Below are positions 17,308 to 45,194 of a stretch of 64,000 nucleotides of DNA, in pieces; within the stretch, counting starts at the first letter, position 1, and each line of letters begins with the position of its first letter. Origin of the DNA: Spirosoma sp. SC4-14 (lineage in GTDB: Bacteria; Bacteroidota; Bacteroidia; Cytophagales; Spirosomataceae); NCBI RefSeq assembly GCF_037201965.1, contig NZ_CP147518.1, positions 2,541,001 through 2,605,000 of the forward strand, in the 5' to 3' direction. The position numbers and the translations under genes are program-made. The notes under the pieces are model-generated. The model worked only from the letters and a program-made list of their open reading frames with translations. It was not told the origin of the DNA and ran no database searches.

Positions 17308-17357
17308 ATAAGCCTGAGTCATAATTTGTGCGAAGAAGAATTGTTAAGCCAGCAAAA

Positions 17358-19397
17358 ATGAATACTATAGAAGAGTATAATCCGCCCGTCAGAAAAACCT
17401 CCCGAAGGATCATACTCTTCAAACTAATCAGTATTCTCTTCTCGCTGCTGATCCTGTGTTTTTTGGAAGTGCTATTGCGGGTAGTTGGCTATGGCTATGA
17501 CATGAGTCTGTTTGTCGATTATCCTGAAAATGGCGAGTTTCTCGTTCTGAACCCAAATGCGTCGAAGAACTATTTCCTGAATCAGAAAATTGCCACAACG
17601 GGTAATATAGAACCCTTTAAAAAGAAAAAAGACCCGAATACCTGCCGCATTTTCGTGCTCGGCGAATCAACCACAATTGGCTATCCTTATTTTCATAACG
17701 GGTCGTTTCATCGCTGGCTACAGTATCGGTTAACGCATACGTTTCCTGATAAAAACTTCGAAATCATTAACCTGTCTCTAACTGCGGTAAACTCGTATTG
17801 TGTACTGGGATTTGCCAGAGAGGTTGTTGAGTATGAGCCCGATGCGGTTCTGATTTATACGGGGCACAACGAATATTACGGAGCATTAGGTGTTGGCTCA
17901 ACGGAGCAGATTGGCGGAAGTCCTTCGCTCGTACATAGTATTCTGAAACTGCGTAAACTTCGGCTGGCGCAGTTGCTGGTCAACACCTATGAACACGCTC
18001 GTCATTTAATAACTCCGGATGGGCAACCGTCGGGCGGTACGCGGATGAAGCTGATGGTGGCCGAGCAGCAGATACCCTATCAGTCGGAGCTATACGAACG
18101 GGGCGTTGAGCAGTTTAGAGCCAACATGGACCAGACACTGGGTTTGCTCAATGAACATACTATTCCTGTTTTTGTCAGCAACCTGGTCAGTAATGAAAAA
18201 GATTTAAAACCGTTCGTCAGTTTTCCGGTCGATAGCCAGAAATTTCCGGGCTTTGTCCAGAATTATTCGCGCGGTGTTGCGGCCTTTAATCGACACGATT
18301 ATTCGTTGGCTTATACCTTTTTCAAGGCTGCCAACCAGAGCAATAATACGCACGCATTGTGTACTTTTTACCTGGGGAAAACCGCGTATGAACTGGGTAA
18401 CTTTGGCTATGCCAAAGCCTATTTTGCCCGAGCCCGCGATCTGGACGGATTGCGTTTCCGGGCACCGGGTTCGCTAAACGGCATTATCGAGCAATTGTGT
18501 AGTACCTACAAGACCGCGCATTTGGTTGATACTAAAGAGGTTTTTGAAGCCCATTCAACCAATAAATTAATTGGCGATGAGCTGATTCTGGAGCATGTTC
18601 ATCCCGATTTGATGGGGTATGCGTTGCTGTCAGAAGCGTTTTATACGAGCCTGAAAGCCGAAAATTTTATTTCGCCCGATCCTGAAAAGGAAATGAGTTT
18701 CGAACAACTGTTGCACAATATGCCCATTACAAAAGTCGATTCGCTTGCTGGTATCTATAAAGTGGCAAACCTGAAACGGAACTGGCCATTTAAGGAGGTC
18801 ATGAAAGCCGATTCGTTTTCGGTCACAACGGTAGAGGAAAAGCTGGCATACGATCTTACATTTCGGCAACTGCCCTGGCTGGATGCGCTCAGCGATTTGT
18901 ATGACCACTACATGCGCAGTCGGCAACTGGCCAATGCGCGAAAAGTGCTGGAAACCTTAGTGCTGGAATACCCGACCGATGCGCGCTATGCCGAAAAAGC
19001 GGCTATGCTCAGTGGTGAACTGAAAGACGAAGAAACGGCTGTTTTCTACTTCAAAAAGGCGTTTGCGCTGGCTCCATCGTTCGATAGGGCAAGGTACCTG
19101 ATTGCGCTTACGCTCCAACTCGACCGACCGCAGGAAGCAATGCCCTATCTCGATTATGCCATTCAGCATAACACGACGCAGTTTAATCTGGGCTTAGTTC
19201 GCGGGTACGCCGAGCGGGTTATTGAGCTTAAACGGGCTTACCAGCGCGACTCAGCTAATTTAACCATTCTCAATCAAATTGCCGACGCTTACTTCCGGAT
19301 GGATAATAAAAGCGTAGCAACCCGATATGTTCAGAAAGTTCTGAAAGTAGATGCTGATAATCAGGGTGCTTTATCGCTGATGGCGCATCTTCGCTAA
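17358..19397 (+). CDS. Membrane-anchored SGNH/GDSL-hydrolase-like protein with C-terminal TPR repeats
   Basis: About 679 residues from the ATG at 17358 (a GTG ten codons earlier is less likely). One transmembrane segment lies near residues 18-40 (LISILFSLLILCFLEVLLRV). Then comes an SGNH-like domain: block I with the serine as FVLGESTTIGYPY, block III as YTGHNEYYG (GHNE in place of GxND), and a late HVHPDLMGYALLSEAF segment that could carry the Asp/His pair. A helical stretch follows (FFKAANQSNNTHALCTFYLG), and near the C-terminus are TPR units (YFKKAFALAPSFDRARYLIA, PYLDYAIQHN). SGNH enzymes cleave esters such as acetyl groups on glycans; that would fit the neighbouring locus, but the substrate is not readable. 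Hairpins isolate it from SusCD; the PQQ gene follows after 13 bases. Confidence 0.8.
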   Translation: MNTIEEYNPPVRKTSRRIILFKLISILFSLLILCFLEVLLRVVGYGYDMSLFVDYPENGEFLVLNPNASKNYFLNQKIATTGNIEPFKKKKDPNTCRIFVLGESTTIGYPYFHNGSFHRWLQYRLTHTFPDKNFEIINLSLTAVNSYCVLGFAREVVEYEPDAVLIYTGHNEYYGALGVGSTEQIGGSPSLVHSILKLRKLRLAQLLVNTYEHARHLITPDGQPSGGTRMKLMVAEQQIPYQSELYERGVEQFRANMDQTLGLLNEHTIPVFVSNLVSNEKDLKPFVSFPVDSQKFPGFVQNYSRGVAAFNRHDYSLAYTFFKAANQSNNTHALCTFYLGKTAYELGNFGYAKAYFARARDLDGLRFRAPGSLNGIIEQLCSTYKTAHLVDTKEVFEAHSTNKLIGDELILEHVHPDLMGYALLSEAFYTSLKAENFISPDPEKEMSFEQLLHNMPITKVDSLAGIYKVANLKRNWPFKEVMKADSFSVTTVEEKLAYDLTFRQLPWLDALSDLYDHYMRSRQLANARKVLETLVLEYPTDARYAEKAAMLSGELKDEETAVFYFKKAFALAPSFDRARYLIALTLQLDRPQEAMPYLDYAIQHNTTQFNLGLVRGYAERVIELKRAYQRDSANLTILNQIADAYFRMDNKSVATRYVQKVLKVDADNQGALSLMAHLR

Positions 19398-19410: not shown

Positions 19411-21672
19411 ATGAGCACACGCAACAAACAAACTATTTTTCGGCGCTGCTTGCGCTCAATGAATGCTATGATCCCCATACCCCGAATTGCCATTGCTACC
19501 CTACTGGCTGGGAGTTGTTTTATGTTCGGTACCCAGAAGTGGGAGGGCGAGTTGCCAACTGGGCAGGATTGGCCCTACTATGGTGGTAACAAAGCTGGTA
19601 ACCGCTATTCGCCACTGACCCAGATCAATACCAGTAACGTAAAAAAATTAGCGGTGGCCTGGATGTATGATGCGTCCGAAAAACCCGACCCGAACAATCC
19701 GGGACGAAGACGGGAGCGCGCCATTCAGTGCCAGCCAATTGTTGTTCATGGCGTTCTGTACGGTACCACACCTGAGCTTAAACTTTTTGCGCTGAAAGCC
19801 GACACGGGCGAACAAATCTGGAAATTTGAACCCTCAAAATCAGACCGGCTAAACTCAAATCGGGGCGTAGTATACTGGGAGTCGGGTAGCGATAGACGTA
19901 TATTGTATACCGTTGGGTCGAGTCTGTATGCAGTAAATGCCGAAACCGGTGAGGGAATTGCCAGTTTTGGTACAAATGGCAAAGCTGATCTGCACGAAGG
20001 CTTGCAAACCAATCTGGATCATGACGTAAGTAAACTGTCGGTTACGGCTACTTCGCCGGGTATTGTTTATCGCAATACGTTCGTCATTGGATCGAGCGTT
20101 TCGGAATCGGGCGATGCCGCTCCCGGCCACATACGGGCGTTCGATGTGCTGACGGGAAAACTGAAATGGGTGTTTCATACCATTCCGCAACCGGGCGAAC
20201 TGGGCTACGACACCTGGCCTGCTGATGCCTATAAGAAAATTGGGGCTGTCAATAACTGGAGTGGTATGTCGCTTGATGAGAAGCGGGGTATGGTTTTTTT
20301 CGGTACGGGCTCTCCGGCATCGGACTTCTATGGGGGCGACAGAAAAGGAAAAAACCTGTTTGCCAACTGTATTATGGCATTGGATGCCGAAACGGGAAAG
20401 CTGAAGTGGTATTATCAGACCATCCACCACGATCTCTGGGACCGCGATCATCCATCTCCGCCAAATTTGATTACGCTGAAACGGAAAGGCTCCGACGGGC
20501 GACTCCGGCGGATCGATGCGGTGGTGCAGGCCACAAAAGACGGCCTGGTGTATGTGCTGGATCGGGATAAAGGGACCTCGCTGTTTCCGGTTGAGGAACG
20601 GAAAGTGCCCGTAAACGGATTGCCGGGCGAACACCCCTGGCCAACGCAGAAATACCCACTGAAACCGTTGCCGCTGTCGCGCCAGATCTATACCGAAGCC
20701 GATCTTACCGATTTATCACCAGAAGCTCATGCGTATGTAAAAGAACGATTTGAAAAGATTAGGACTCCGAACAAATTTACACCACCGAGCACGAATGGAA
20801 CATTGCTGTTTGGTTATAGCGGTGGAGCCGAATGGGGAGGCAATTCTATTGACCCCGACGGTATTCTTTACCAGAACGTCAATGAAGAACCCTGGGAGCT
20901 AATCATGACCGAGCGGGCTAGTCTGAGCAAACAGGATAAACCCCTCACCATTGGGAACGCTCTCTATGTAGCTAACTGCGCAGCCTGTCATGGGCAGGAT
21001 CGGCGGGGGAGTGGTCCGGAACTGCCGTCGCTGATCGACATTGGTAAAAAGCGATCGGCCGACGAAATTAAAGCCATTCTAAAAACGGGCAGTGGTCGTA
21101 TGCCTTCGTTTCAGCACCTTTCCGATAAGGAACGTGATGCGTTGGTTAATTTCCTGCTCAACAAAGATTCGGGTTCGGCTACGGTTGCCAGTGCAGCTAC
21201 CACAAAATCGAGTGATTCTAAAAACAGCGGTTTCCCCTACGTTCCGGCCTATGTGAGCAAAGTCTGGCAGCGGTTTACGGATCAGAATGGGTATCCGGGC
21301 ATCAAACCGCCCTGGGGAACGCTGAACGCCATTGACCTGAACACGGGCGACTATCTGTGGCGGGTGCCGCTGGGTGAGTATCCCGAACTGGCGAAGAAAG
21401 GCGTCCCCACCACCGGAACCGATAGCTACGGCGGGCCACTCGCAACCGCAGGCGGACTGGTGTTCATTTCTGGTACGAAAGATGAGAAAATTCGCGCTTT
21501 CGATAAGAAGACGGGTAAGGTGGTCTGGGAGTATCAGCTTCCAGCGGGGGGCTTTGCTACGCCAATTGCTTATGAAGTTGCCGGAACCCAGTATATCGTC
21601 ATTGCGGCTGGCGGTGGGCGTGGCCAGAAGATTGGAGGAAATTATGTTGCTTTTGCGCTTAAACGCTACTAG
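19411..21672 (+). CDS. PQQ-dependent dehydrogenase with inserted cytochrome c domain
   Basis: Quinoprotein beta-propeller of 753 residues, most like glucose/aldose dehydrogenases. Seen: the opening W-motif blade DWPYYGGNKAGNRYSPLTQI, further blades (LKADTGEQIWKFEP, FDVLTGKLKWVFHT), the segment HHDLWDRDHPSPPNLITL, VVQATKDGLVYVLDRDKGTS, and a late blade (GTKDEKIRAFDKKTGKVVWE). A heme c domain is inserted at about 510-590 with CAACH at 523-527 and a likely Met ligand in GSGRMPSFQHLSD. This predicts periplasmic oxidation of a sugar to a lactone or acid with electrons passed to the respiratory chain. The export signal is clearest if translation starts at residue 17 or 20 (MIPIPRIAIATLLAGS). The next gene starts 9 bases downstream. 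Confidence 0.92.
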   Translation: MSTRNKQTIFRRCLRSMNAMIPIPRIAIATLLAGSCFMFGTQKWEGELPTGQDWPYYGGNKAGNRYSPLTQINTSNVKKLAVAWMYDASEKPDPNNPGRRRERAIQCQPIVVHGVLYGTTPELKLFALKADTGEQIWKFEPSKSDRLNSNRGVVYWESGSDRRILYTVGSSLYAVNAETGEGIASFGTNGKADLHEGLQTNLDHDVSKLSVTATSPGIVYRNTFVIGSSVSESGDAAPGHIRAFDVLTGKLKWVFHTIPQPGELGYDTWPADAYKKIGAVNNWSGMSLDEKRGMVFFGTGSPASDFYGGDRKGKNLFANCIMALDAETGKLKWYYQTIHHDLWDRDHPSPPNLITLKRKGSDGRLRRIDAVVQATKDGLVYVLDRDKGTSLFPVEERKVPVNGLPGEHPWPTQKYPLKPLPLSRQIYTEADLTDLSPEAHAYVKERFEKIRTPNKFTPPSTNGTLLFGYSGGAEWGGNSIDPDGILYQNVNEEPWELIMTERASLSKQDKPLTIGNALYVANCAACHGQDRRGSGPELPSLIDIGKKRSADEIKAILKTGSGRMPSFQHLSDKERDALVNFLLNKDSGSATVASAATTKSSDSKNSGFPYVPAYVSKVWQRFTDQNGYPGIKPPWGTLNAIDLNTGDYLWRVPLGEYPELAKKGVPTTGTDSYGGPLATAGGLVFISGTKDEKIRAFDKKTGKVVWEYQLPAGGFATPIAYEVAGTQYIVIAAGGGRGQKIGGNYVAFALKRY

Positions 21673-21680
21673 GTCGGCTT

Positions 21681-22676
21681 ATGAAAAACAGGCAGTCAGC
21701 ATACGTTTCCTTGCTCATTGGCTTTTGCGGTATTGGTCTGGCCAGTCTGCTGCTCAGCCTGAAACCAGCGCTGGATGTTCCGCAGGCCGACATCACCAAT
21801 GGGTTGGTGCAGGCGAAACTGTACCTGCCCGATGCCAGCAAGGGATATTATCGGGGCACACGCTTCGACTGGTCGGGTGTGGTGGCCAGTCTCGAATACA
21901 ATGGGCATACGTATCATGGTCAGTGGTTCGACAGCTACAGCCCAACCCTGCACGATGCCGTGATGGGGCCGGTCGAAGAATTTGGCCCACTGGGCTATGC
22001 CGATGCCAAAGCAGGGGAGTCGTTTGTTAAGATTGGTATTGGTAGCCTGACCAAACCCGACGATAAACCCTACAGCCCATTCCGACTTTATCCGAGGGTC
22101 GATCTGGGGCATTGGATCGTGAAGAAAAAGGACAACCAGGTGCTCTTCAGGCATACGTTCAAAGGCAGCCAGTATGCCTATGACTATCAGAAAATACTGA
22201 AGCTGACAAAAGGAAAGCCTGAACTGGTCATAACGCACACGCTGAAGAATACCGGTACGCGGTTGATTTCAACAATGGCCTATGATCATAACTTTTTTGT
22301 GATCGATCAGCAACCAACTGGCCCGACCTATTCCGTAACGTTTCCAATTGCCGATCTATCGGCCGAAGGTGGTAAAGGACTTGGCGAAGTAGCCAGGCTT
22401 CAGGGAAACCAACTGATCTATCTGCGCAATCTGAATAAGGGCGAACAGGCATATTTTCCCGATTTGTCGGCCGGGAAACCAGTTCCCTATGCCATTGGGG
22501 TCGAGAATACCAAAACGGGTGCTGGTGTGAAGGTCACGGGCGACCGGGCAATTGCCCGACTTGTGTATTGGTCGTCGCCAACCACAGTATGCCCCGAACC
22601 CTACATCGACATTAAAGTAGAGCCGGGCAAAACCTTTAGCTGGCAGATTGCCTATCAGTATTACACTAAACCGTAG
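21681..22676 (+). CDS. Exported protein of aldose-1-epimerase-like fold (putative)
   Basis: 331 residues with a single N-terminal membrane or signal segment (AYVSLLIGFCGIGLASLLLS). The body reads as beta-rich: LVQAKLYLPDASKGYYRGTR, FDWSGVVASLEYNGHTYHGQ, then LVITHTLKNTGTRLISTMAY followed by DHNFFVID and, near the end, CPEPYIDIKVEPGKTFSWQI. The pattern of a His within an N-[HY]-x-F-F-like motif followed by beta strands suggests the galactose-mutarotase fold, but I cannot confirm catalytic residues. It sits 9 bases after the PQQ dehydrogenase and 52 before the dehydratase gene, so it is very probably co-transcribed. A role in presenting the right sugar anomer to the dehydrogenase is a guess from context. 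Confidence 0.6.
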   Translation: MKNRQSAYVSLLIGFCGIGLASLLLSLKPALDVPQADITNGLVQAKLYLPDASKGYYRGTRFDWSGVVASLEYNGHTYHGQWFDSYSPTLHDAVMGPVEEFGPLGYADAKAGESFVKIGIGSLTKPDDKPYSPFRLYPRVDLGHWIVKKKDNQVLFRHTFKGSQYAYDYQKILKLTKGKPELVITHTLKNTGTRLISTMAYDHNFFVIDQQPTGPTYSVTFPIADLSAEGGKGLGEVARLQGNQLIYLRNLNKGEQAYFPDLSAGKPVPYAIGVENTKTGAGVKVTGDRAIARLVYWSSPTTVCPEPYIDIKVEPGKTFSWQIAYQYYTKP

Positions 22677-22728
22677 TGAAATAACGCAACAGCCTGAACT
22701 TTTGATTCTATAACTCAATAAACCCGCA

Positions 22729-24093
22729 ATGAACAAGCCAGAAATTCAATCAGAAACCAGCCGTCGGAATGCGCTGAAACTATTAGGGATGGGATCGTCA
22801 GCCGGAATTTTAGGATTGTTCGGTAGCCCGCAAGCACGTGCCGAAACCTATCAAACGCCTGCCTATGCCAAAGGAGCGGCCCCTGTGACCATCAAAAGTG
22901 TACGAGCCATAACCACTGCGCCAGGAGGTTCCAATCTGGTAATTGTGAAAGTTGAAACATCCGAGCCTGGTTTATATGGAATCGGCTGTGCAACCTTCAC
23001 CCAGCGGGCGCTGGTTGTGGTGCCAGCCATTAACACCTACCTGAACGAATTTTGTGTGGGCAAGGATGTCGACAATATCGAAGATATGTGGCAGTCGGCT
23101 TATGTAAGTTCGTACTGGCGGAACGGTCCGGTGTTGAACAATGCGCTGTCGGGGCTGGATCAGGCGTTGTGGGACATTAAAGGCAAGCGGGCCAATATGC
23201 CGGTTTATCAGTTACTGGGTGGCAAAGCCCGGTTTGCGGTCGATACCTATACGCACGCTAGTGGCCCAACACCCGAGGCTATTGCCGATCGGGTACAGCA
23301 GTTTATGGAAATGGGTTTCCGGCACGTACGGATTCAGCAGGGCGGTTACGGTGGCGTAGGGGCTATGAACGACATTAAGCCCGATTTTAAAACGGCTGGT
23401 TTTGCTAAAGATACCGACGATTTTTCGGATCAGAAAACTTACCTGAAGCGCGTTCCGAAGATGTTCGATGTGGTTCGTAAACGCTGCGGTGAAGACGTTC
23501 AGTTATTACACGATATGCACGAGCTGGTAGAGCCCATCGATGCGATCAACATGATCAAGAGATTGGAAGAATACCGTCCATTTTTCGTCGAAGACCCATT
23601 CTCGCCCGAAAATATGAAGTGGTTTAAGACACTACGCGAATCGACCTCGGTGCCCATTGCCATGGGCGAACTCTTCAACAATACTAATGAGTTTAAAGAG
23701 CCGATGGTGAATCAGTGGTTCGATTTTATTCGGATTCATATTTCGCAGATTGGCGGCATTACACCCGCAATGAAAGTGGCGCGTCTGGGCGAGTGGTTCA
23801 ATGTTCGGACGGCCTGGCATGGCCCCGGCGATACGTCGCCGGTTGGACATGCAGCCAACAACAGTATCGATATTGCCGTCTGGAACTTCGGTATTCAGGA
23901 ATCGCAGATGTTCAACGATAAGGTGAAAGAAGTGTTCCCCGGCTGCCCGACCATCAAAAATGGTTACTATGAAGTAAGCGATGCACCCGGACTAGGTGTC
24001 GATATCAACGAGAAAGAAGCCGCTAAATATCCCATCGGAACCAAATCGCGCTGGACCGTTCGGAAAAGCGACGGCACGATTTTGAAGCCATAA
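22729..24093 (+). CDS. Enolase-superfamily sugar-acid dehydratase, mannonate-dehydratase-like, with Tat signal
   Basis: 454 residues. The N-terminus carries a twin-arginine signal (TSRRNALKLLGMGSSAGIL, cleavage near AQA-like QARA-E), so a periplasmic location is predicted. The body matches the mannonate dehydratase (ManD/RspA) branch: LSGLDQALWDIKGKRANMPV, FRHVRIQQGGYGG, LLHDMHELVEPIDAI (D262, H264), FFVEDPFSPEN (E288), PIAMGELFNN (E314), and TAWHGPGDTSPVGHAA (H364, D368) with NFGIQESQ. The three acidic Mg ligands and the two histidines are all present. This family dehydrates D-mannonate or D-gluconate to 2-keto-3-deoxygluconate. Family members normally work in the cytoplasm, so the Tat signal is unusual. 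A BASS-family carrier follows immediately. Confidence 0.88.
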   Translation: MNKPEIQSETSRRNALKLLGMGSSAGILGLFGSPQARAETYQTPAYAKGAAPVTIKSVRAITTAPGGSNLVIVKVETSEPGLYGIGCATFTQRALVVVPAINTYLNEFCVGKDVDNIEDMWQSAYVSSYWRNGPVLNNALSGLDQALWDIKGKRANMPVYQLLGGKARFAVDTYTHASGPTPEAIADRVQQFMEMGFRHVRIQQGGYGGVGAMNDIKPDFKTAGFAKDTDDFSDQKTYLKRVPKMFDVVRKRCGEDVQLLHDMHELVEPIDAINMIKRLEEYRPFFVEDPFSPENMKWFKTLRESTSVPIAMGELFNNTNEFKEPMVNQWFDFIRIHISQIGGITPAMKVARLGEWFNVRTAWHGPGDTSPVGHAANNSIDIAVWNFGIQESQMFNDKVKEVFPGCPTIKNGYYEVSDAPGLGVDINEKEAAKYPIGTKSRWTVRKSDGTILKP

Positions 24094-24101
24094 TTCTACC
24101 T

Positions 24102-24136
24102 GCAACTCCCGAAAACAGCAAGTTTTTGGGAGTTGC
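24102..24136 (+). terminator. Hairpin between the dehydratase and transporter genes
   Basis: A 15-bp stem (24102-24116 with 24122-24136) has one mismatch and a 5-nt loop. It starts 9 bases after the dehydratase stop. It could attenuate transcription into the transporter gene, whose ATG is at 24157. Confidence 0.6.
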
Positions 24137-24156
24137 CTAGCTTATTTTCTGTATCT

Positions 24157-25227
24157 ATGAATGTGTATAAATTCGTGCTGGGCCTGGGCGCAGTGTGTCT
24201 GTTTATTGCCCTCTATCTGGTGTCAAAAGACGCTTTGCCGCAGGCCGGACCGTACCTGATTGCTTTTTTCATTACGCTGGCTGTTGGTTTTAGAGGATAC
24301 GAGCATCTGAAAGGATTTTCGTATACCGTTATCATTTTTGCCTCAGTAACAACCGCCCTGTATTACCCGAATTATTTCATTGAAGTAAATGGATTTAACC
24401 TGTCGGGGCTAATTACGCCACTCATTCAGTTGATTATGTTTGGTATGGGAACGTCGATGAGTCTGGAGGATTTTGTGGGGGTGGTTAAAATGCCCAAAGG
24501 CGTCTTTATCGGTGTGGTTAGTCATTTCGCGATTATGCCGATGCTGGGTTTTACGATTGCGAATTTCAGCGGACTCGATCCCGAAATTGCGGCTGGTATT
24601 ATTCTGATTGGTTGCTCGCCCAACGGCATGGCATCGAACGTAATTTCGTATCTGGCCAAGGCCAATCTGGCGCTCTCGATTACCATAACGGCCATTTCGA
24701 CCACCATTTCTCCCTTCGTAACGCCTTTGCTAATGAAATTGCTGGCGGGCGCTTTTGTCGAAATTGATGTGCTGCACATGATGTGGGATATTATTAAGAT
24801 GGTGATTTTGCCGATTGGGGCCGGGCTGCTTTTTAACAAATTTCTGAGCGGAAAAGCTAAATGGCTCGATGAGGCCATGCCACTGGTGTCGATGTTCGGG
24901 ATTGCCTTCATCATTGTTGTAATCACCGCTGCCGGGCGCAACAGTTTATTGTCGATTGGGCCGATTTTGATTGGGCTGGTCCTGATCCATAACCTCTGCG
25001 GTTATCTGCTGGGCTATTGGTCGGCCCGGTTATTCAGAATGAACGAACGCGACTGCCGAACCATCGCCATCGAAGTTGGTATGCAGAACGGTGGGCTGGC
25101 TTCGGGCATTGCCAAAGAAATGGGGAAGATGGCTACGGTTGGACTGGCCCCGGCTATATTCGGCCCGCTGATGAACATTACGGGTTCTATGCTGGCTTCG
25201 TGGTGGCATCGGAGTGTTCGGGAATGA
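24157..25227 (+). CDS. BASS-family (bile acid:sodium symporter-like) transporter
   Basis: About 356 residues, strongly hydrophobic with about nine to ten membrane helices; inner membrane. Seen: FNLSGLITPLIQLIMFGMGT with MSLEDF, typical of the family's start of the core; IILIGCSPNGMASNVISYLA, the crossing-helix motif (GCCPGG-like) with serine/asparagine ligands; AISTTISPFVTPLLMKLLAG; and EVGMQNGGLASGIA, the second conserved crossover motif. These carriers move organic anions with sodium. Between a periplasmic sugar-acid dehydratase and oxidoreductases, the likely cargo is a sugar acid or 2-keto-3-deoxy acid; this is inference. I use the ATG at 24157; a TTG 8 codons earlier lies inside the hairpin. 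Confidence 0.9.
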   Translation: MNVYKFVLGLGAVCLFIALYLVSKDALPQAGPYLIAFFITLAVGFRGYEHLKGFSYTVIIFASVTTALYYPNYFIEVNGFNLSGLITPLIQLIMFGMGTSMSLEDFVGVVKMPKGVFIGVVSHFAIMPMLGFTIANFSGLDPEIAAGIILIGCSPNGMASNVISYLAKANLALSITITAISTTISPFVTPLLMKLLAGAFVEIDVLHMMWDIIKMVILPIGAGLLFNKFLSGKAKWLDEAMPLVSMFGIAFIIVVITAAGRNSLLSIGPILIGLVLIHNLCGYLLGYWSARLFRMNERDCRTIAIEVGMQNGGLASGIAKEMGKMATVGLAPAIFGPLMNITGSMLASWWHRSVRE

Positions 25228-25344
25228 GTAAAAAGAGGTAAGTATAAAGTTTTCAGAAATATAAATTTTTCAGAAAACCCAACTGGCCTAAAGTGGCAAC
25301 TGTGTCGTACTTGCTGTAGCGTACTGCACATTCAAGAAAAACGT

Positions 25345-27597
25345 ATGAAAAAGAAAATCTGGTTTGCTGGCCTTATGGCTGCCTCAGCTCTGGTAGTTAC
25401 CTGTCAGGTATCGCGTAATTCGTCGATGGGAACAACGCAGCAATCGACGAAGGCTACCACTACCGACGTTGCCGACACCGTTCCTGCATTCACGGCCAAT
25501 CCGTCGCCCGCCTATTTAACGCCCGAGCAGAGCTTAAAAACCTTTCGGTTGCCTGAGGGCTATCATCTGGAACTGGTTGCCAGCGAACCCATGATTCATG
25601 AGCCCGTTGCCGTTGCCTGGGATGGTAATGCCCGGATGTACGTAGCCGAAATGGATACCTACATGCAGGACATTGACGGCTCAAACGAGCATGCGCCCAT
25701 CAGCCGGGTAAAGTTGCTGGAAGATACAGATGGCGACGGCAAAATGGACAAAAGTTCGGTGTTTATCGATAAACTGCTGTTGCCCCGTATGCTGATGTGT
25801 GTCGGACACGAATTACTGGTCAACGAAACCGATACCTACGATATTTATAGCTATAAAGATACCAACGGCGATGGAGTTGCCGATCAAAAAAGACCCGTAT
25901 TTGAACTGGGCCGAAAAGCACCCGGTAATCTGGAGCACCAGCGTAGCGGCCTCGACTGGAATCTCGACAACTGGATTTATGTGACCGTCGACCCGATCCG
26001 GTTCCGGTATAGCAATGGCGTGTTGAAAGCTGACTCAATTCCCAGCGGATCGGGTGGGCAGTGGGGGCTCACGCACGATAATTACGGCCGCTTGTATTTT
26101 TCATCGGCGGGTGGCGAAGTGCCAGCGCTGGGTTTTCAAATTAACCCCATTTATGGCCGCATGGAATTTTCCGATCAGTATACGCAGGAGTTCAACGCTG
26201 TTTGGCCAATCATCAAAACACCCGATATTCAGGGGGGCGTGCCCCGCATTCGTACGACCGATACGACCCTCAATCACTTTACCGCCAGTTGCGGCCAGGT
26301 CGTTTTTCGGGGCGATCGGTTACCTGCCGATCTATCGGGCGATTTGCTGATTAGCGAACCCGTTGGCCGCCTGATTCGGCGGGCAAAAGTCATCAATAAA
26401 GATGGAAAGACAACGCTCGAAAACGCCTATGACAAGCAGGAATTTATAGCCTCAACGGACATGAATTTCCGGGTCGTAAATATGTATACTGGTCCTGATG
26501 GTTGCCTCTATCTGGTCGATATGAACCGGGGAATTATTCAGGAAGGCAACTGGACCCGCCCCGGAAGTTACCTGCGCCCGCAGATTCAGCGGCTTGGTCT
26601 GGATAAAAACATTCAGCACGGTCGTATTTATCGACTGGTACACGACGGCATGAAGCCGGGACAGGCTCCGCATATGCTCGATGAACCGGGCAGTAAACTG
26701 GTTACCTACCTGGATCATCCGAACGGCTGGTGGCGCGACAACGCCCAGAAAGAACTCATCGTGCGCAACGACCGGTCGGTGGTGCCAACGCTGAAAGCAA
26801 TGGCCAATCGCCAGCAAAATGCCACAGCTCTGGGCCGGATTCATGCCCTCTGGACACTAGAAGGACTCAATGTACTGGATAAAGCAACCATTCAGAAAGC
26901 CCTTGAAGACGATGATGCGCAGGTGCGCCGTACGGCTGTTCGACTAACGGAACCCTATCTGAAACAAAACGATGAGCAATGGCTGACACAATTGAGCCAC
27001 TTGAAAAACGACCCCAGCTTCGACGTTCGGACACAGGTAATTCTGTCGGCTTCCTACAGTTCGTTGCCTGCTGCCAGAGCCTTGTCGCAGGAAATGCGGG
27101 CGGCAGCACCAGCCAATGAAATGCTGGCCCGAGCCCAAGTGAGCCTCGACAAAAACGAAGATGTGAAAAAGTTTGGGTTGAAACTGGGGCGGTTGGACGA
27201 AGCCGACCGGAAACTGGTGCTCAACGGGGCTACGATCTATAAATCGCTCTGCGCAACCTGCCATGGTATCGACGGAAAAGGCTTGCCCAGCAAGGTAGCT
27301 CCTTCGCTGGTGGGCTCGCAACGCCTACGTAATCAGGACAAAAACATTCCGATTCAGATTTTGCTGCATGGGCTGTCAGGTCCCATTGATGAGCAAACCT
27401 ATCCCGATATGATGCCGCCTATGGGTGCTAATGACGACGAGTGGATTGCTTCCGTTCTGAGCTATGTTCGGAATGAGTTTGCTCCAGCAGTTCCGATTCG
27501 TCCAACTGATGTAAAAGCGGCTCGGGCAAAAACCGCAGGCCGGGATAAAACCTGGACACTAGCTGAACTCATCAAGCCAAAAGAGGGTGAAAAATAG
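25345..27597 (+). CDS. PVC-type/sorbosone-dehydrogenase-like propeller protein with HEAT-like region and cytochrome c
   Basis: 750 residues. The N-terminus (MKKKIWFAGLMAASALVVTC) ends in a possible lipobox cysteine at about 20. A glucose/sorbosone-dehydrogenase-like beta-propeller follows (FRLPEGYHLELVASEPMIHE, PVAVAWDGNARMYVAEMDTY, LLEDTDGDGKMDKSSVF, NTGPDG-like MYTGPDGCLYLVDMNRG). Next is a helical repeat region (VTYLDHPNGWWRDNAQKEL, DDDAQVRRTAVRLTEPYL), then a heme c domain near the end with CATCH at about 636-640 and a likely Met ligand in YPDMMPPMGAND. This layout is known from membrane-bound dehydrogenase-like proteins of Planctomycetes and Bacteroidota, whose substrates are mostly unknown. 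A second cytochrome-bearing sugar oxidoreductase in one locus points to stepwise periplasmic oxidation. Confidence 0.88.
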   Translation: MKKKIWFAGLMAASALVVTCQVSRNSSMGTTQQSTKATTTDVADTVPAFTANPSPAYLTPEQSLKTFRLPEGYHLELVASEPMIHEPVAVAWDGNARMYVAEMDTYMQDIDGSNEHAPISRVKLLEDTDGDGKMDKSSVFIDKLLLPRMLMCVGHELLVNETDTYDIYSYKDTNGDGVADQKRPVFELGRKAPGNLEHQRSGLDWNLDNWIYVTVDPIRFRYSNGVLKADSIPSGSGGQWGLTHDNYGRLYFSSAGGEVPALGFQINPIYGRMEFSDQYTQEFNAVWPIIKTPDIQGGVPRIRTTDTTLNHFTASCGQVVFRGDRLPADLSGDLLISEPVGRLIRRAKVINKDGKTTLENAYDKQEFIASTDMNFRVVNMYTGPDGCLYLVDMNRGIIQEGNWTRPGSYLRPQIQRLGLDKNIQHGRIYRLVHDGMKPGQAPHMLDEPGSKLVTYLDHPNGWWRDNAQKELIVRNDRSVVPTLKAMANRQQNATALGRIHALWTLEGLNVLDKATIQKALEDDDAQVRRTAVRLTEPYLKQNDEQWLTQLSHLKNDPSFDVRTQVILSASYSSLPAARALSQEMRAAAPANEMLARAQVSLDKNEDVKKFGLKLGRLDEADRKLVLNGATIYKSLCATCHGIDGKGLPSKVAPSLVGSQRLRNQDKNIPIQILLHGLSGPIDEQTYPDMMPPMGANDDEWIASVLSYVRNEFAPAVPIRPTDVKAARAKTAGRDKTWTLAELIKPKEGEK

Positions 27598-28531
27598 CAT
27601 TCTTGTACTGATTGTCATTGCTTTCGGACCAGCTATCGTTGCGGGGGCTGGTGTTCCGGCACCCGCTTACCGAAGTGAACTGAGAATACCTTATTGTACG
27701 GTTGATGGCAATGTGTTAACCCTCAATGCGTTTTTGCCCATCGATGCGAAGAAGCCAACCCCCGTTATGGTCGATATTCATGGTGGTTGGTGGAGTGGGG
27801 GGGAGCCGGTAACGGGTATTCCCGATTATCTGGCAAAAAAAGGCATTGCCCTATTTTCGATTTCGTATCGGCTGGGTGAACGGGGCGGTTTTCCACAAAA
27901 CATCCGCGACTGTCGCAATGCCATTCGGTTTATTAGAAAAAATGCTGCCCGGTTTAACATCGATCCCGATCGGATCGACTGTATGGGTGGGTCGGCTGGG
28001 GGGCATCTGAGCCTGATGGTGGCTATGGTCCCCGACGATTTCGACGATGGTGGACCCACCGATGAGCTGGAAGGGTACAGTGCCCGTGTTGCCGGTTGTT
28101 TTGGATTCATTGCCCCTACCGATTTTATCCGATTCTGGAATCAGGGCCCCGACGATGCCGTGACGAGTGCATATGGTGGCATAACGTTTCGCGTGCCTGA
28201 TCCTAAGATTCCCTATGACTCAAGGCCCCGCTTACGCATGTTGTTTCATGGTATTACACCGGATTCGCCGGAGCACATGGCTTTATACCGGCGGATGTGC
28301 CCAATGGGACAAGTGCGGAAAGATGTGCCGCCATTGCTCATTTGCGATGGCGATATTGATCCTATTGTGCCGGGGTTGCATGGGAAGTTGCTGCACGAAA
28401 AACTGCAAAACCTTGGGGCTGATACCACGTATTGGATGAGTGTCAATGGTGGACACGCATTCCCATCTGGCGATGGATTTATGGATTTGCTGGATGCTTT
28501 CCTGATTCGAACGCTGAAATTGACGGAGTAA
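27587..28531 (+). CDS. Exported alpha/beta hydrolase (acetyl-esterase/BD-FAE-like)
   Basis: 314 residues starting at a GTG that overlaps the end of the previous gene by 11 bases, so translation is probably coupled. The N-terminus is a signal peptide (LVLIVIAFGPAIVAGAG). Seen: oxyanion-hole motif MVDIHGGWWSGGEPV, the nucleophile elbow RIDCMGGSAGGHLSLM (G-x-S-A-G), an acid in LLICDGDIDPIVPGLH, and the catalytic His in VNGGHAFPSGDG. The family includes esterases that remove acetyl or feruloyl groups from plant glycans. In this setting it might also open a sugar lactone made by the PQQ enzyme, but the sequence does not decide. The next gene begins 18 bases on. Confidence 0.9.
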   Translation: MKNSILVLIVIAFGPAIVAGAGVPAPAYRSELRIPYCTVDGNVLTLNAFLPIDAKKPTPVMVDIHGGWWSGGEPVTGIPDYLAKKGIALFSISYRLGERGGFPQNIRDCRNAIRFIRKNAARFNIDPDRIDCMGGSAGGHLSLMVAMVPDDFDDGGPTDELEGYSARVAGCFGFIAPTDFIRFWNQGPDDAVTSAYGGITFRVPDPKIPYDSRPRLRMLFHGITPDSPEHMALYRRMCPMGQVRKDVPPLLICDGDIDPIVPGLHGKLLHEKLQNLGADTTYWMSVNGGHAFPSGDGFMDLLDAFLIRTLKLTE

Positions 28532-28549
28532 CTCTAGGGCGCAGATCGT

Positions 28550-29833
28550 ATGCAAAGGCTTATTTTTCTGATCGTTATCCTTATTTTTTGCCAGACTCTT
28601 ACGGCCAATAGCCAGTCGAGGACGGTTGTTTATGATGAAACGGGGTGTTTGTACACCAGCTATAAAGGGCTGGTGATGGCGGGCTATCAGGGATGGTTTG
28701 CGGCTCAGGGTGATGCGTCGAATCGGGGTTGGCATCATTACCAGAAGAAAGACACATTTGAACCGGGGCATGCTTCGATCGACTTTTGGCCCGATGTGAA
28801 CGAATACCCGAAAACGTATCCGACAGCTTTTTCGTATGCCGATGGGAAACCGGCCTATGTCTACAGTCCCTACGATGAGTCTAGTGTTGATCTGCATTTT
28901 AAGTGGATGAAAGAATACGGAATCGATGGCGTATTCATGCAGCGATTTCTGGTCGAAGTGAAATCCGAAAAAGGCAAACGACATTTTAATCAGGTGCTGG
29001 CCAATGCCCTGAAAGCGGCCCGAAAATACAAGCGGGCGCTCTGCATTATGTATGACTTGAGTGGCGCAACGTCGGCCGATATGGATTTACTGATCGACGA
29101 TTGGAACGAGCTTCAGCGGCAGTTCGATCTATTTAGTAATAAGGCAAATCCTACGTATCTGCGCCATAATGGTAAACCGTTGCTGGCGATCTGGGGTGTT
29201 GGCTTTAACGATGGGCGTAACTATACAGTTGCCGATGTGCAAACGGTGGTAGGGAAACTAAAGAGCTCAACCAATAAAACGTCGATTCTACTGGGCGTAC
29301 CCTACTACTGGCGAACGATGACGAAGGATACGGAACCATCGAATTTGTTACATCCGCTTATCAAAAGTGTCGACATCATTATGCCCTGGGCCGTTGGACG
29401 GTATACCGCTCAGACCTACGCATCAGTAGCCGATGCGACCTTGCCCGGCGATATAGCCTGGTGCGCAGCCAATCAGGTGGATTATGTGCCGTTGGTATTT
29501 CCAGGGTTTAGCTGGGGAAATCTAAAAAATAGCCCAGCGGTTTATAATCAGATTCCACGGCTAAAGGGCAACTTCCTCTGGCAACAGGTGGCAGGCGCCA
29601 AACAGGCAGGCGTAACGAGTTTATATGTGGCCATGTTTGATGAGGTTGACGAAGGAACCGCTATCTTTAAAACCCAAAAAGAAGGCCATCTGCCACTCAA
29701 TGCCGACGGAAAGTTTGTTGGAATCGAGGCTGATCTGGATTCGGACTACTATCTGTGGCTTACGGGGCAGGCTGCCAATTGGTTTCATGGCAGGAAGGGG
29801 TATAGCGCCGAAAAACCTTCCCGAAAAAAGTAG
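28550..29833 (+). CDS. Exported GH99/GH71-like glycoside hydrolase
   Basis: 427 residues with a signal peptide (RLIFLIVILIFCQTLTANSQ). The body resembles the TIM-barrel GH99-like/GH71-like proteins common in Bacteroidota: GLVMAGYQGWFAAQGDASNR, PYDESSVDLHFKWMKEYGID with GVFMQRFL, LCIMYDLSGATSADMDLLID, KPLLAIWGVGFNDG, DIIMPWAVGRYT, VPLVFPGFSWGNL and a late TSLYVAMFDEVDEGTAIFK, in which Asp/Glu residues are placed like a catalytic pair. GH99 enzymes cut mannans at internal sites and GH71 enzymes cut alpha-1,3-glucans; which activity this has is open. It ends 3 bases before a 24-bp inverted repeat. Confidence 0.8.
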   Translation: MQRLIFLIVILIFCQTLTANSQSRTVVYDETGCLYTSYKGLVMAGYQGWFAAQGDASNRGWHHYQKKDTFEPGHASIDFWPDVNEYPKTYPTAFSYADGKPAYVYSPYDESSVDLHFKWMKEYGIDGVFMQRFLVEVKSEKGKRHFNQVLANALKAARKYKRALCIMYDLSGATSADMDLLIDDWNELQRQFDLFSNKANPTYLRHNGKPLLAIWGVGFNDGRNYTVADVQTVVGKLKSSTNKTSILLGVPYYWRTMTKDTEPSNLLHPLIKSVDIIMPWAVGRYTAQTYASVADATLPGDIAWCAANQVDYVPLVFPGFSWGNLKNSPAVYNQIPRLKGNFLWQQVAGAKQAGVTSLYVAMFDEVDEGTAIFKTQKEGHLPLNADGKFVGIEADLDSDYYLWLTGQAANWFHGRKGYSAEKPSRKK

Positions 29834-29836
29834 GAT

Positions 29837-29912
29837 ATTAGCAGAACTGTGGCACGGTTATAACAGACCCAAGGGCATCTGGCCCACTTAACCGTACCAC
29901 AGTTCTGCTAAT
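29837..29912. repeat. 24-bp inverted repeat between GH99-like and GH43 genes
   Basis: Arms 29837-29860 and 29889-29912 pair with a single mismatch. The right-arm word CCGTACCACAGTTCTG is almost the same as CCGTGCCACGGTTCTG in the palindrome at 35786-35816, so this belongs to a dispersed family. An ATG at 29911 in the arm is open into the GH43 frame but is not the likely start. Confidence 0.85.
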
Positions 29913-29931
29913 GTCCTCTAAAAAAGAACCT

Positions 29932-31497
29932 ATGCTTCGCTTTATTCCGTCTGCTCTTCTGTGTCTATCCGTTGCCATTTCCAGTATAGCTCAGTCTGTT
30001 TCGCAACCTAAGCCGGTTATTACCTACCGAAATCCGGTTATTGCGGGCGATTTTGCCGATCCATCCGTTATTCGGGTTGGTGATATCTACTATGCTGCCG
30101 GAACATCGTCGGAGTGGGGGCCTGCCTATCCTGTCTATACCTCGAAAGATCTGGTAAACTGGGCATATGTAGGACCGGTTTTTCAGAATCTGCCCGACTG
30201 GACAATGGGAAGCTACTGGGCTCCGGAATTGTTTTATCGGAACGGGACTTTTTATGTATACTACACCGCACGCCGTAAGTCCGATAAGCATTCGTATATC
30301 GGTGTGGCTTCTACCCGCGATCTTCGAAAAGGGTTTACCGATCATGGCCTTTTACTGGAATGGACTTCGGAGGCAATCGACGCTTTTGTGGTTGAAGACG
30401 CCGGAAAACTGTACATTAGCTGGAAAGCCTACGGGCTCGATAAAGGCAAAGACATCGAAATTCTGGGAGCCGAACTATCGGCAGATGGACTCAAAGTTGT
30501 TGGGAAAGCGTTTCCGATGCTGAAAGCCGATGGCAACAACTGGGAATCGGGAGGAGCCGAAGGGCAGGCTATTTTTAAACACGGCCGCTATTATTACATG
30601 ACTTATTCGGGCAATACCTGTTGCGGAGCCCAGTGTAACTATCAGGTAGGTCTAGCCCGCGCCGAAAAATTGCAGGGGCCGTGGGAGAAATATGCCGGTA
30701 ATCCGGTGCTGGTTAGCGACGAAAGCTGGAAATGCCCCGGCCATGGAACGGTCGTAACAACGCCCGATAATCGGTTCTTTTATCTGCATCATGCGTATAG
30801 CGCTGTCGATTTTACCCAGGTCGGCCGTCAGGGTGTGCTGAGCGAGCTGGTCTGGAACGAAAAAACACAATGGCCTGTCTTTCGCTACGGTACAACACCA
30901 CCCGCTCAGGCCGAAAGTCCACTACCAGCCTGGCAGAAAAATATACCTGATCGGGCTATCGATTTCAGTGAAAATGTAACCGATATACCCTGGGTTTGGG
31001 ATGTGAGTTTGCCAAAACCCATCTTTACTATTGAGAATAGAGCTTTGCAATTGGCTAATACTACCATCAATACAACCGGTACCTTTCTGGGATTGGTGAT
31101 TAAAAAAGGCTCCTATACGTTTACGACCGAAATCAATCCCGTACAAAATTCGCTTCAAAGCATTTGTCTCTATGGCGATGCCAGCAATGCGTTGGGGCTG
31201 GGTGTTCGTAACAATCAGGTAGAGTTGTGGCAAGTGAAAGACGGGCAGCGTAGGGTGCTCAGAACAGCGCCGATTGCCGATGTATCAGCACCTGTTCGGC
31301 TTCAGCTTCGCAGTCGTTTCGGGCAGTTTTACGAATTTAGCTGGCAGACAACCAATGGAAAAACGCAGTTAATGACCGATGCCTGGCTCGATGGTTCGTT
31401 CTTGCCACGCTGGGATCGGGCTCCACGAGTTGGGTTGAGCGTTGCCGGAGATAAGGCAGTGGGTTCGGTACGGTCAGTACGGATAACGTATGAATAA
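29932..31497 (+). CDS. Exported glycoside hydrolase family 43 enzyme
   Basis: About 521 residues from the ATG at 29932, with a signal peptide (IPSALLCLSVAISSIAQS). GH43 members are five-bladed propellers, mostly arabinosidases, xylosidases and galactosidases. Seen: the catalytic-base block GDFADPSVIRVGDIYYAAGT, YPVYTSKDLVNWAYVGPVF, DWTMGSYWAPELFYRNGTF, the pKa-modulating Asp in SEAIDAFVVEDAGKLYISWK, the likely acid Glu in NWESGGAEGQAIFKHG, and CPGHGTVVTTPDNRFFYLHH. After residue about 350 a separate beta domain follows (PIFTIENRALQLANTT; WQTTNGKTQLMTDAWLDGSF), like the C-terminal concanavalin-type domain of GH43. It is the last gene of the locus on this strand with a clear glycan role. Confidence 0.92.
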   Translation: MLRFIPSALLCLSVAISSIAQSVSQPKPVITYRNPVIAGDFADPSVIRVGDIYYAAGTSSEWGPAYPVYTSKDLVNWAYVGPVFQNLPDWTMGSYWAPELFYRNGTFYVYYTARRKSDKHSYIGVASTRDLRKGFTDHGLLLEWTSEAIDAFVVEDAGKLYISWKAYGLDKGKDIEILGAELSADGLKVVGKAFPMLKADGNNWESGGAEGQAIFKHGRYYYMTYSGNTCCGAQCNYQVGLARAEKLQGPWEKYAGNPVLVSDESWKCPGHGTVVTTPDNRFFYLHHAYSAVDFTQVGRQGVLSELVWNEKTQWPVFRYGTTPPAQAESPLPAWQKNIPDRAIDFSENVTDIPWVWDVSLPKPIFTIENRALQLANTTINTTGTFLGLVIKKGSYTFTTEINPVQNSLQSICLYGDASNALGLGVRNNQVELWQVKDGQRRVLRTAPIADVSAPVRLQLRSRFGQFYEFSWQTTNGKTQLMTDAWLDGSFLPRWDRAPRVGLSVAGDKAVGSVRSVRITYE

Positions 31498-45020: not shown

Positions 45021-45047
45021 GAGCGAAGAAATTGGGTCTTAAAATAC

Positions 45048-45077
45048 CAAAAGTACAAAAAGCTAAGCTACCACAAA
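45048..45077 (-). promoter_or_regulatory. Bacteroidota promoter for the GH3-fusion operon
   Basis: On the minus strand, TTTG (45077-45074), an 18-base spacer, then TACTTTTG (45055-45048), an exact TAnnTTTG. The -7 box ends 27 bases before the ATG at 45020. Spacing is within the range reported for this phylum. Confidence 0.65.
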
Positions 45078-45153
45078 CCCGTATGTTCTTCTCTTAATCG
45101 ATGTTTAAGCATCCCGACACTATAAAGAGTCGTTTGTATACTGTATATAAACA

Positions 45154-45194
45154 AAATCGGGGGAGTTGAGCACATGGGCCAACTCCCCCGATTT
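45154..45194 (-). terminator. Intrinsic terminator after the second susD
   Basis: A 15-bp perfect stem (45154-45168 with 45180-45194) with CGGGGGAGTTG in the arm and an 11-nt loop. On the minus strand it is followed by TTTTGTTTA. It starts 12 bases past the SusD stop and separates the SusCD pair from the GH3-fusion operon. Confidence 0.88.

Follow-up and report, generated by a model that had tools for sequence, protein, structure and literature searches.

The De Ley-Doudoroff pathway of galactose (galactose dehydrogenase, a lactonase, DgoD, DgoK and DgoA) proceeds by C1 oxidation, dehydration to a 2-keto-3-deoxy acid, and kinase and aldolase steps. In the periplasmic oxidation of glucose by Gcd, as seen in Pseudomonas and the acetic acid bacteria ('periplasmic trapping'), PQQ-dependent oxidation of the aldose takes place outside the cytoplasm and the aldonate or ketoaldonate is then imported. 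The polysaccharide utilization loci of Bacteroidota have an ECF/FecR-SusCD-glycosidase organization. Here we describe a locus of Spirosoma sp. SC4-14, a soil-type member of the Bacteroidota, contained in a stretch of 64,000 nucleotides (the window), that shares features with each of these systems. It follows the logic of the De Ley-Doudoroff pathway, but a PQQ/cytochrome c enzyme would perform the first oxidation, and Tat-type signals on the dehydratases would place dehydration before import. With the Gcd scheme it would share PQQ-dependent oxidation of an aldose outside the cytoplasm and uptake of an acid; here, however, an exported dehydratase would act before import, and the oxidizing enzyme has a cytochrome c insert and lacks the membrane domain of Gcd. 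To the usual organization of a polysaccharide utilization locus, this one adds a respiratory sugar-oxidizing module and a sugar-acid dehydratase predicted to be exported. On balance, we favor the reading that this is a SusCD-linked operon for extracytoplasmic sugar oxidation and dehydration.

The original prediction described seven consecutive plus-strand genes, from the PQQ dehydrogenase gene to the GH99-like gene, and all seven open reading frames are present (Table 1). They are closely packed: the first four gaps measure 8, 52, 39 and 117 bases, the fifth and sixth genes overlap by 11 bases, and 18 bases separate the last two. The unit exceeds these seven genes, with ECF/FecR, SusC, SusD and GDSL/TPR genes upstream (the last ending 13 bases before the PQQ dehydrogenase gene) and a GH43 gene downstream. 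For the carrier, the most likely start is the ATG at 24157 rather than 24133, as modeled on the homolog at locus L117. Promoter and terminator scans gave results scarcely above those for shuffled sequence. Most of the predicted family assignments held, with Pfam or other profile matches for the PQQ/cytochrome c enzyme, the mannonate-dehydratase-like enzyme, the BASS carrier and the esterase, and predicted folds for the mutarotase-like and GH99-like proteins. The label 'sorbosone-dehydrogenase-like' had to be replaced: the protein is a member of the DUF7133 propeller family, and no GSDH Pfam match was obtained at E 1e-3. Export had been proposed for all products except the carrier. Using simple rules, without SignalP, we likewise predict a Tat signal on the dehydratase and find hydrophobic N-termini on the other soluble enzymes.

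Table 1. Predicted products of the operon and its flanking genes (window coordinates)
Product	Coordinates	Strand	Matches
ECF sigma factor, probable regulator of the unit	9956..10546	+	PF08281, PF04542
FecR-type anti-sigma factor	10681..11934	+	PF04773, PF16344
SusC-type TonB-dependent receptor with STN domain	12112..15609	+	PF07715, PF13715, PF07660
SusD-type lipoprotein	15656..17188	+	PF07980, PF14322
Membrane-anchored GDSL(SGNH)-hydrolase-like/TPR protein, candidate lactonase/esterase	17328..19397	+	PF13472 (sub-cut-off), TPR
Gcd-kind PQQ dehydrogenase, predicted exported, cytochrome c domain inserted between propeller segments	19411..21672	+	PF01011, PF13442
Galactose-mutarotase-fold protein, predicted exported	21681..22676	+	predicted structure
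Enolase-superfamily sugar-acid dehydratase with predicted Tat signal, ManD subgroup	22729..24093	+	PF13378, PF02746, NF043051
BASS-family inner-membrane carrier, proposed importer of keto-deoxy or other organic acid	24157..25227	+	PF01758
DUF7133 beta-propeller, HEAT repeats and cytochrome c (CxxCH), putative accessory oxidoreductase	25345..27597	+	PF23500, TIGR02604, PF00034
BD-FAE type alpha/beta-hydrolase esterase, predicted exported	27587..28531	+	PF20434
GH99-like glycoside hydrolase, predicted exported	28550..29833	+	Foldseek
GH43 glycoside hydrolase, predicted exported	29911..31497	+	PF04616 (E 4e-68)

The PQQ dehydrogenase matches PF01011 with an E value of 4e-182 and scores 454 bits against TIGR03074 (Gcd), under the cut-off of 832.65. 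Residues D466, K493, W404, R266 and D730 of Gcd, which we take to be the catalytic Asp and the PQQ-contacting residues, are all kept (5/5), as D344, K376, W283, R151 and D691. By contrast, H262 and R201 of Gcd are not conserved, and the alignment to Gcd revealed no counterpart of its N-terminal membrane domain. By these residues the protein is probably a PQQ-dependent dehydrogenase, one that differs from Gcd proper in score and in the membrane domain. Assignment to the 'empty' quinoprotein class (TIGR04528) is disfavored, the score being 250 bits against a cut-off of 650 and the PQQ-site residues being conserved. The host genome encodes six PQQ paralogs in 8.1 Mb, and PqqE was found over cut-off in none of 36 genomes of the genus; PQQ must therefore be scavenged, a point we count against our preferred explanation. 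The absence of PqqE agrees with that of PQQ biosynthesis from PqqU-bearing Bacteroidota (PMC12124388).

The dehydratase has 3t6c, 3tw9 and 4ihc as its closest PDB matches. Compared with the ManD subgroup of D-mannonate/D-gluconate dehydratases (these three and 3ow1), it has the same metal ligands and catalytic histidines with identical spacing: D262, H264, E288, E314 and H364 lie at a constant offset of 52 from NaManD positions 210, 212, 236, 262 and 312, which we take to be the D/E/E metal ligands and the catalytic H pair. It is 40% identical to E. coli RspA across its whole mature length, with a shorter active-site loop, and its score against the ManD equivalog (NF043051), 388 bits, is under the curated cut-off of 550. 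The ManD subgroup includes enzymes described as low-efficiency. Given this and the low equivalog score, the true substrate of the dehydratase may differ. The protein is distinct from its ManD relatives in its added N-terminal signal (SRRNALKLLGMGSSAGILGLFGSPQARA; SRRNALK...PQARA), in which an RR motif, a hydrophobic core and an A-x-A site can be read. This twin-arginine signal is convincing, TatC is encoded in the genome, and the protein is a predicted Tat substrate. The enzyme is not a classical UxuA; both UxuA genes of the host lie elsewhere. In a class-level search at E 1e-120, the dehydratase was found in only 5 of 395 genomes, indicating a patchy rather than class-wide trait.

Neither the mutarotase-like nor the GH99-like protein has a Pfam match. 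The AlphaFold2 model of the former (pLDDT 91) gave a Foldseek E value of 6e-11 and aligned to GalM/aldose 1-epimerase chains with VIA-align 2 Z 15-19 over about 230-250 residues, pointing to a GALM-type fold. For the latter, the top 33 Foldseek rows are all GH99, which suggests a GH99 fold, albeit from a weak model (pLDDT 64). The carrier matches PF01758 (SBF; E 3e-40, 138 bits) above the gathering cut-off and falls below the cut-offs of the equivalogs TIGR00841 (239 versus 326 bits) and PanS (235 versus 400 bits). The BASS family is known for the transport of bile acids and (keto)pantoate. The DUF7133 protein scores 174 bits against TIGR02604 ('PVC-type heme-binding CxxCH'; cut-off 122), and its PDB matches are confined to the cytochrome c domain. 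Among the PDB matches of the esterase are the acetyl xylan esterase 6xyc and the carbohydrate esterase 6tkx. In the GDSL/TPR protein, an N-terminal hydrophobic segment and GES/GHNE/EHVHP motifs can be read from the sequence; its match to PF13472 (E 1.7e-6) is under the gathering cut-off, and the PDB search returned TPR matches only.

In the pathway that we propose, sugar would be brought in and released by SusCD and the exported glycosidases, and the mutarotase-like protein would supply the right anomer. The PQQ dehydrogenase would oxidize the sugar at C1 to a lactone, passing electrons to the respiratory chain via its cytochrome c domain. The lactone may open on its own or be assisted by the GDSL/TPR protein or the esterase, and in the periplasm the Tat-exported ManD-type dehydratase would then convert the aldonate to a 2-keto-3-deoxy acid. 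This acid would be imported by an inner-membrane carrier (BASS here, a DgoT-like MFS protein at other loci) and passed to kinases and KDPG/KDPGal aldolases of the cytoplasm, whose genes lie elsewhere in the genome. Neither a kinase nor an aldolase gene is present in the window, a point against the scheme; PfkB-type kinase genes beside KDPG aldolase genes do occur in the host genome. The ManD/GlucD-like character of the enzyme and the presence of a GH99-like protein lead us to a weak best guess for the substrate at the window locus: D-mannose and/or D-glucose, yielding KDG. The scheme is built on gene content, homology, catalytic residues, Tat-type signals, linkage, and a paralogous locus with kinase, aldolase and carrier; we infer the substrate, the order of reactions, the lactonase, the cargo of the carrier and the actual localization.

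We then considered 80 homologous loci, a set selected on similarity to the query and lacking phylogenetic independence. A PQQ dehydrogenase gene lies near the dehydratase gene in 56 of them, always on the same strand, to be set against the six PQQ paralogs in the 8.1 Mb of the host genome, and this linkage is seen in Spirosoma, Larkinella, Dyadobacter, Fibrisoma, Parapedobacter and Flavobacterium. SusC is encoded in 52/80 loci, a mutarotase-like homolog in 32, a GDSL/TPR homolog together with the dehydratase in 23, and a DUF7133 homolog in 14 (in Dyadobacter and Parapedobacter); no locus of the 80 has an esterase homolog. The syntenic Spirosoma loci L034 and L117 lack the DUF7133 cytochrome gene; the GH99-like gene is retained at syntenic Spirosoma loci. 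As both the esterase and the DUF7133 gene are missing at syntenic loci, we rejected them as core parts of the pathway. Spirosoma and Bacteroidales-type MAGs have BASS homologs next to the dehydratase, but BASS is missing or replaced in many loci, with a DgoT-like MFS carrier in others, making the carrier only partly a conserved core component. At L062, a locus from a MAG, an exported PF10282 lactonase is also encoded. With regard to the original prediction, the exact seven-gene order was found in this genome only; nonetheless, the pairing of PQQ and Tat-dehydratase genes, usually beside SusCD, recurs across genera of Bacteroidota. The route once proposed, from sugar to lactone, acid and keto-deoxy acid outside the cytoplasm followed by import, is largely supported by the conserved linkage and the paralogous locus but loses the esterase and the cytochrome gene from its core.

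The paralogous locus, at C1:4.26-4.29 Mb of the same genome, encodes three dehydratases with Tat-type signals. Its gene order is LacI, Tat-MR_MLE, SusCD, Tat-ManD, Tat-DgoD, SusCD, mutarotase-like, PQQ dehydrogenase, KDGal kinase (PF05035), KDPGal aldolase and DgoT-like MFS. The DgoD-like protein is 45% identical to its E. coli counterpart, the aldolase 35% to DgoA and the MFS protein 27% to DgoT, and the DgoD homolog of L073 scores 432 bits against the galactonate dehydratase equivalog, over the cut-off of 311. Since the dehydratase, KDGal kinase and KDPGal aldolase are encoded together, this locus, unlike that of the window, can be filed as De Ley-Doudoroff, apparently with dehydration moved to the periplasm. 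We regard it as the strongest support for the exported-dehydration reading.

A Pseudomonas-like arrangement, in which only oxidation is periplasmic and the aldonate is imported for cytoplasmic dehydration, would require that the twin-arginine N-termini be non-functional or the exported pool minor. Periplasmic conversion of sugar to acid before transport is indeed established (PMC12076931), and E. coli DgoT carries the annotation of galactonate symporter. Moreover, the PQQ gene at another host locus (L149) is paired with IlvD/EDD dehydratase and amidohydrolase genes whose products have no evident export signal, and a DgoD-like protein at L087 lacks a Tat signal. However, an RR signal with hydrophobic core, called by simple rules, is present in 131 of the 133 MR_MLE proteins of the 80 loci. 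These fall in at least three subfamilies (ManD-like, DgoD-like and a third), and their tree requires at least three gains or losses of the signal. E. coli RspA and DgoD have no signal and begin directly at the mature domain. Signals are also missing from the neighboring kinases and nearly all aldolases, suggesting that they are specific to the dehydratases. These data make the oxidation-only arrangement unlikely.

Less probable still is a reading in which the window MR_MLE enzyme is no aldonate dehydratase but has a different acid sugar derivative as its substrate. It might then be an epimerase, a cycloisomerase or a lyase, working for instance on uronates, on aldobionic acids or on a 3-keto sugar product. 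The enolase superfamily is functionally diverse, and the equivalog scores are under their cut-offs. At L065, another PQQ protein and a 3-keto-disaccharide hydrolase domain are encoded nearby; at L150, a Tat MR_MLE protein has UxuA, an RraA-like protein and a glucuronoyl-esterase-like one as neighbors. Conservation of the ManD catalytic residues and their spacing in the window enzyme argues otherwise, as does the DgoD-like paralog, which has the same kind of signal, exceeds the galactonate dehydratase cut-off and sits with KDGal kinase and KDPGal aldolase. Finally, that the redox genes and dehydratase are unrelated neighbors in an ordinary glycan-utilization locus is most improbable: SusCD, GH43 and GH99-like genes would by themselves form a normal locus, and the esterase and DUF7133 genes lack conservation at syntenic positions, but PQQ and dehydratase genes remain linked, always on one strand, through differing gene orders and genera.

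A broader version of extracytoplasmic oxidation and dehydration is possible, although we hold it only tentatively. Several Bacteroidota may run most of an Entner-Doudoroff/De Ley-Doudoroff-type pathway outside the cytoplasm, with oxidation dependent on scavenged PQQ and Tat export of dehydratases gained repeatedly. Bacteroidales-type relatives may also export the lactonase (PF10282) and an RraA-like pyruvate-type aldolase (signal peptide), in which case only keto-deoxy acids, or pyruvate and aldehydes, would cross the inner membrane via BASS/MFS carriers. The open-licence literature yielded no account of an exported sugar-acid dehydratase or an extracytoplasmic dehydration step, in line with the initial remark that its author knew of no such system; given this scope, it is weak evidence of novelty. 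If the proposed pathway is correct, a shared diffusible sugar would be turned into a compound that few neighbors can use, and electrons would be drawn from it before import, bypassing sugar transport and hexokinase. A central-carbon step would join the short list of extracytoplasmic catabolism, and there would be one reason for PQQ scavenging by Bacteroidota unable to make it. The pathway also yields a clear prediction for the many database proteins in which a Tat signal and a mandelate-racemase-type fold occur together. Spirosoma and Dyadobacter are culturable genera.

Within the window, the seven genes that the original prediction had assigned to a periplasmic route (sugar to lactone, acid and 2-keto-3-deoxy acid, followed by import) are in place, all on the plus strand and with intergenic gaps of at most 117 bases. 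The unit extends beyond them, with ECF sigma and FecR genes followed by SusC and SusD directly upstream of a GDSL/TPR gene, and a GH43 gene downstream. A second SusCD pair, accompanied by a 998-residue secreted protein that is GH3-like by eye, lies elsewhere in the window. The closest homologues of the window occur in Spirosoma and Larkinella, with ∼90% identity for the dehydratase.

Coordinates of genes and loci (window positions unless an L-numbered comparison stretch or a host contig, C1 or C2, is named)
Feature	Position	Strand	Remark
GDSL/TPR	17328-19397		3' end 13 bases upstream of PQQ gene
PQQ dehydrogenase	19411-21672	+	
Mutarotase-like	21681-22676	+	
Dehydratase (ManD subgroup)	22729-24093	+	
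BASS carrier	24133-25227	+	
DUF7133 propeller/cytochrome c	25345-27597	+	
BD-FAE type esterase	27587-28531	+	
GH99-like	28550-29833	+	
Second SusCD pair with secreted protein	42027-49680	-	
dgo-like locus	L113:1-19901 + L114:7096-9999		host genome, C1:4.265-4.287 Mb
IlvD/EDD locus	L149:1297-11956		host genome, C2
UxuA/RraA-like locus	L150:9727-14906		host genome, C1:6.90-6.91 Mb
Second PQQ gene and following genes	L065:16305-21370		Parapedobacter
DgoD-like gene	L087:2317-3462		Segetibacter MAG
MAG loci	L062:2466-12398; L061:1209-10053		Bacteroidales-type

We scanned genome contigs for loci homologous to that of the dehydratase and clustered all genes within the 80 found. Within the stretches retrieved, a PQQ dehydrogenase gene accompanies the dehydratase gene in 56/80 loci (57/81 including the window), in every case on the same strand and at most 2.5 kb from the dehydratase gene in 43/57; these loci were picked by similarity to the query and are mutually related, so the counts are not independent. 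Because the 8.1-Mb host genome holds six PQQ paralogues, our own arithmetic puts the chance of finding one within 10 kb of a given gene at roughly 1.5%. Co-occurrence in other Bacteroidota was borne out across six genera (Larkinella 10/10, Dyadobacter 22/23, Spirosoma 13/15, Parapedobacter 4/5, Fibrisoma 2/2, Flavobacterium 1/1). Mutarotase-like genes were found in 32/80 loci and SusC in 52/80. The exact seven-gene order is not conserved, being unique to this genome: L034 and L117 lack the DUF7133 and esterase genes, and no esterase homologue was seen in any of the 80 loci.

Gene orders among the loci
Layout	Genes
A, window type (L033, L034, L117)	SusCD, GDSL/TPR, PQQ, mutarotase-like, dehydratase, optional BASS, GH99-like, GH43
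B, Dyadobacter	GH95, DUF7133, PQQ, dehydratase, ECF/FecR, SusCD, GDSL/TPR
C	SusCD, mutarotase-like, PQQ, dehydratase, GDSL/TPR
D, dgo type	as host L113, L114 and Fibrisoma L073
E, Parapedobacter	DUF7133, dehydratase, PQQ, mutarotase-like, MFS, second PQQ
F, Bacteroidales-type MAGs	PQQ absent; BASS in some

In Dyadobacter (L041-L052), a GH95-type glycosidase and a DUF7133 cytochrome protein lie directly upstream of the PQQ and dehydratase genes, which suggests substrates containing L-fucose or L-galactose. Beside one Parapedobacter dehydratase locus, the gene for a second PQQ protein precedes those for a TIM-barrel protein and for a 3-keto-disaccharide hydrolase/FG-GAP protein, a possible connection to 3-keto-glycoside chemistry.

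Over 404 aligned columns, the window dehydratase shares 40% identity with E. coli RspA, and its closest solved structures are 'ManD family' dehydratases. Residues D262, H264, E288, E314 and H364 are spaced exactly as 210, 212, 236, 262 and 312, which we take to be the NaManD site. Sequence evidence supports membership in the ManD subgroup; the substrate is not fixed, because the score of 388 bits falls below the equivalog cut-off of 550.

Its N-terminus, MNKPEIQSETSRRNALKLLGMGSSAGILGLFGSPQARA, is predicted to be a textbook twin-arginine (Tat) signal. By a simple rule, 131/133 MR_MLE proteins of the loci carry Tat-type N-termini; aligned on RR, their commonest residues are S-R-R-x-A-L-K, with the last-place Lys in 101/132 and otherwise variable flanks. 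In an alignment with these proteins, both RspA and DgoD of E. coli start at the mature domain. In a 59-member tree, in which some branches are long, the Tat label requires at least three gains or losses (starred branches); Tat-bearing enzymes include ManD-like, DgoD-like and third clades, with RspA and DgoD among them. Hydrophobic N-termini were seen in 1/8 KDPG aldolases and 0/12 KDGal kinases, and the host encodes TatC. One Segetibacter DgoD-like protein lacks a Tat signal; its locus also encodes Tat-signal MR_MLE proteins, KDGal kinase and KDPG aldolase.

A complete dgo-like locus in the host genome (L113/L114) contains three Tat-signal dehydratases and two SusCD pairs, in the order LacI, Tat MR_MLE, SusC, SusD, Tat ManD (76% to the window dehydratase), Tat DgoD-like, SusC, SusD, mutarotase-like, PQQ, KDGal kinase, KDPGal aldolase, MFS. 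Identity to the E. coli counterparts is 45% for the DgoD-like enzyme (DgoD, 386 columns), 35% for the aldolase (DgoA) and 27% for the carrier (DgoT). At the corresponding locus of Fibrisoma (L073), the DgoD-like protein scores 432 bits, above the curated cut-off of 311 bits for galactonate dehydratase, and the kinase is PF05035. The gene set is that of E. coli dgo with a PQQ dehydrogenase added, and the dehydratases carry predicted export signals, with none on kinase or aldolase. This locus links Tat-signal dehydratases to sugar-acid catabolism, independently of the original reasoning.

The window PQQ protein is a Gcd-kind propeller (34% to E. coli Gcd over 453 columns) whose segments are separated by an inserted cytochrome c domain. 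It retains Asp466, presumably the catalytic Asp, along with Lys493, Trp404, Arg266 and Asp730. His262 and Arg201 are not retained which, on the residue roles we assume for Gcd, suggests a different substrate pocket. Because PqqE was not found over cut-off in any of 36 genus genomes searched, PQQ must be supplied from outside, in agreement with reports of PqqU-bearing Bacteroidota without PQQ biosynthesis (PMC12124388).

The mutarotase-like protein gave no match in the family search, and its predicted structure (pLDDT 91) has a galactose-mutarotase fold. The GH99-like assignment is by fold, from a weak underlying model. Besides its propeller and cytochrome c, the DUF7133 protein contains HEAT repeats. 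The GDSL(SGNH)/TPR protein, membrane-anchored and encoded next to the PQQ and dehydratase genes in 23/80 loci with varying gene order, is a candidate lactonase or deacylase.

Most likely, oxidation and dehydration are periplasmic: the PQQ enzyme would oxidize the sugar at C1, the lactone would be opened by the GDSL/TPR protein (the most consistent candidate) or the esterase (a local one), and the Tat enzyme would dehydrate the aldonate to a 2-keto-3-deoxy acid. BASS or MFS carriers would import this product for phosphorylation and cleavage by cytoplasmic enzymes. PfkB-type kinase genes adjoin KDPG aldolase genes in the host genome (L144, L145), which has one KDGal kinase. The rival, cytoplasmic dehydration, may hold for some loci, because L149 in the same genome pairs a PQQ dehydrogenase with an IlvD/EDD dehydratase on which no export signal was seen, beside a lactonase-like amidohydrolase, a Gfo/Idh protein and rhamnosidase-type hydrolases. 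Dehydration there is presumably cytoplasmic, and both designs may coexist in one cell.

It is known that sugars can be oxidized in the periplasm and the acid taken up afterwards (PMC12076931). The De Ley-Doudoroff pathway is known too, and its accounts in PMC6927180 and PMC5507952 mention no exported dehydratase. Since we found no description of an exported sugar-acid dehydratase in the open-licence literature, exported dehydration would be the new part of a variant of these pathways.

One MAG locus (L062) may point to an extracytoplasmic pathway that is more complete still, combining an exported PF10282 lactonase and an RraA-like aldolase with signal peptide (both predicted), two Tat dehydratases and a BASS carrier. 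A sulfatase adjoins these genes, and L061 encodes a UxuA-like protein with an RR signal; in these MAGs, an aldonate pathway that runs wholly outside the cytoplasm and yields pyruvate as its end product is possible. In the host genome, L150 consecutively encodes UxuA, a glucuronoyl-esterase-like protein, a Tat-signal MR_MLE enzyme and an RraA-like protein with signal peptide. From about position 7000 of L057, a Bacteroidetes MAG stretch, six MR_MLE-family genes, most with RR signals, are almost consecutive, with one BASS carrier between them.
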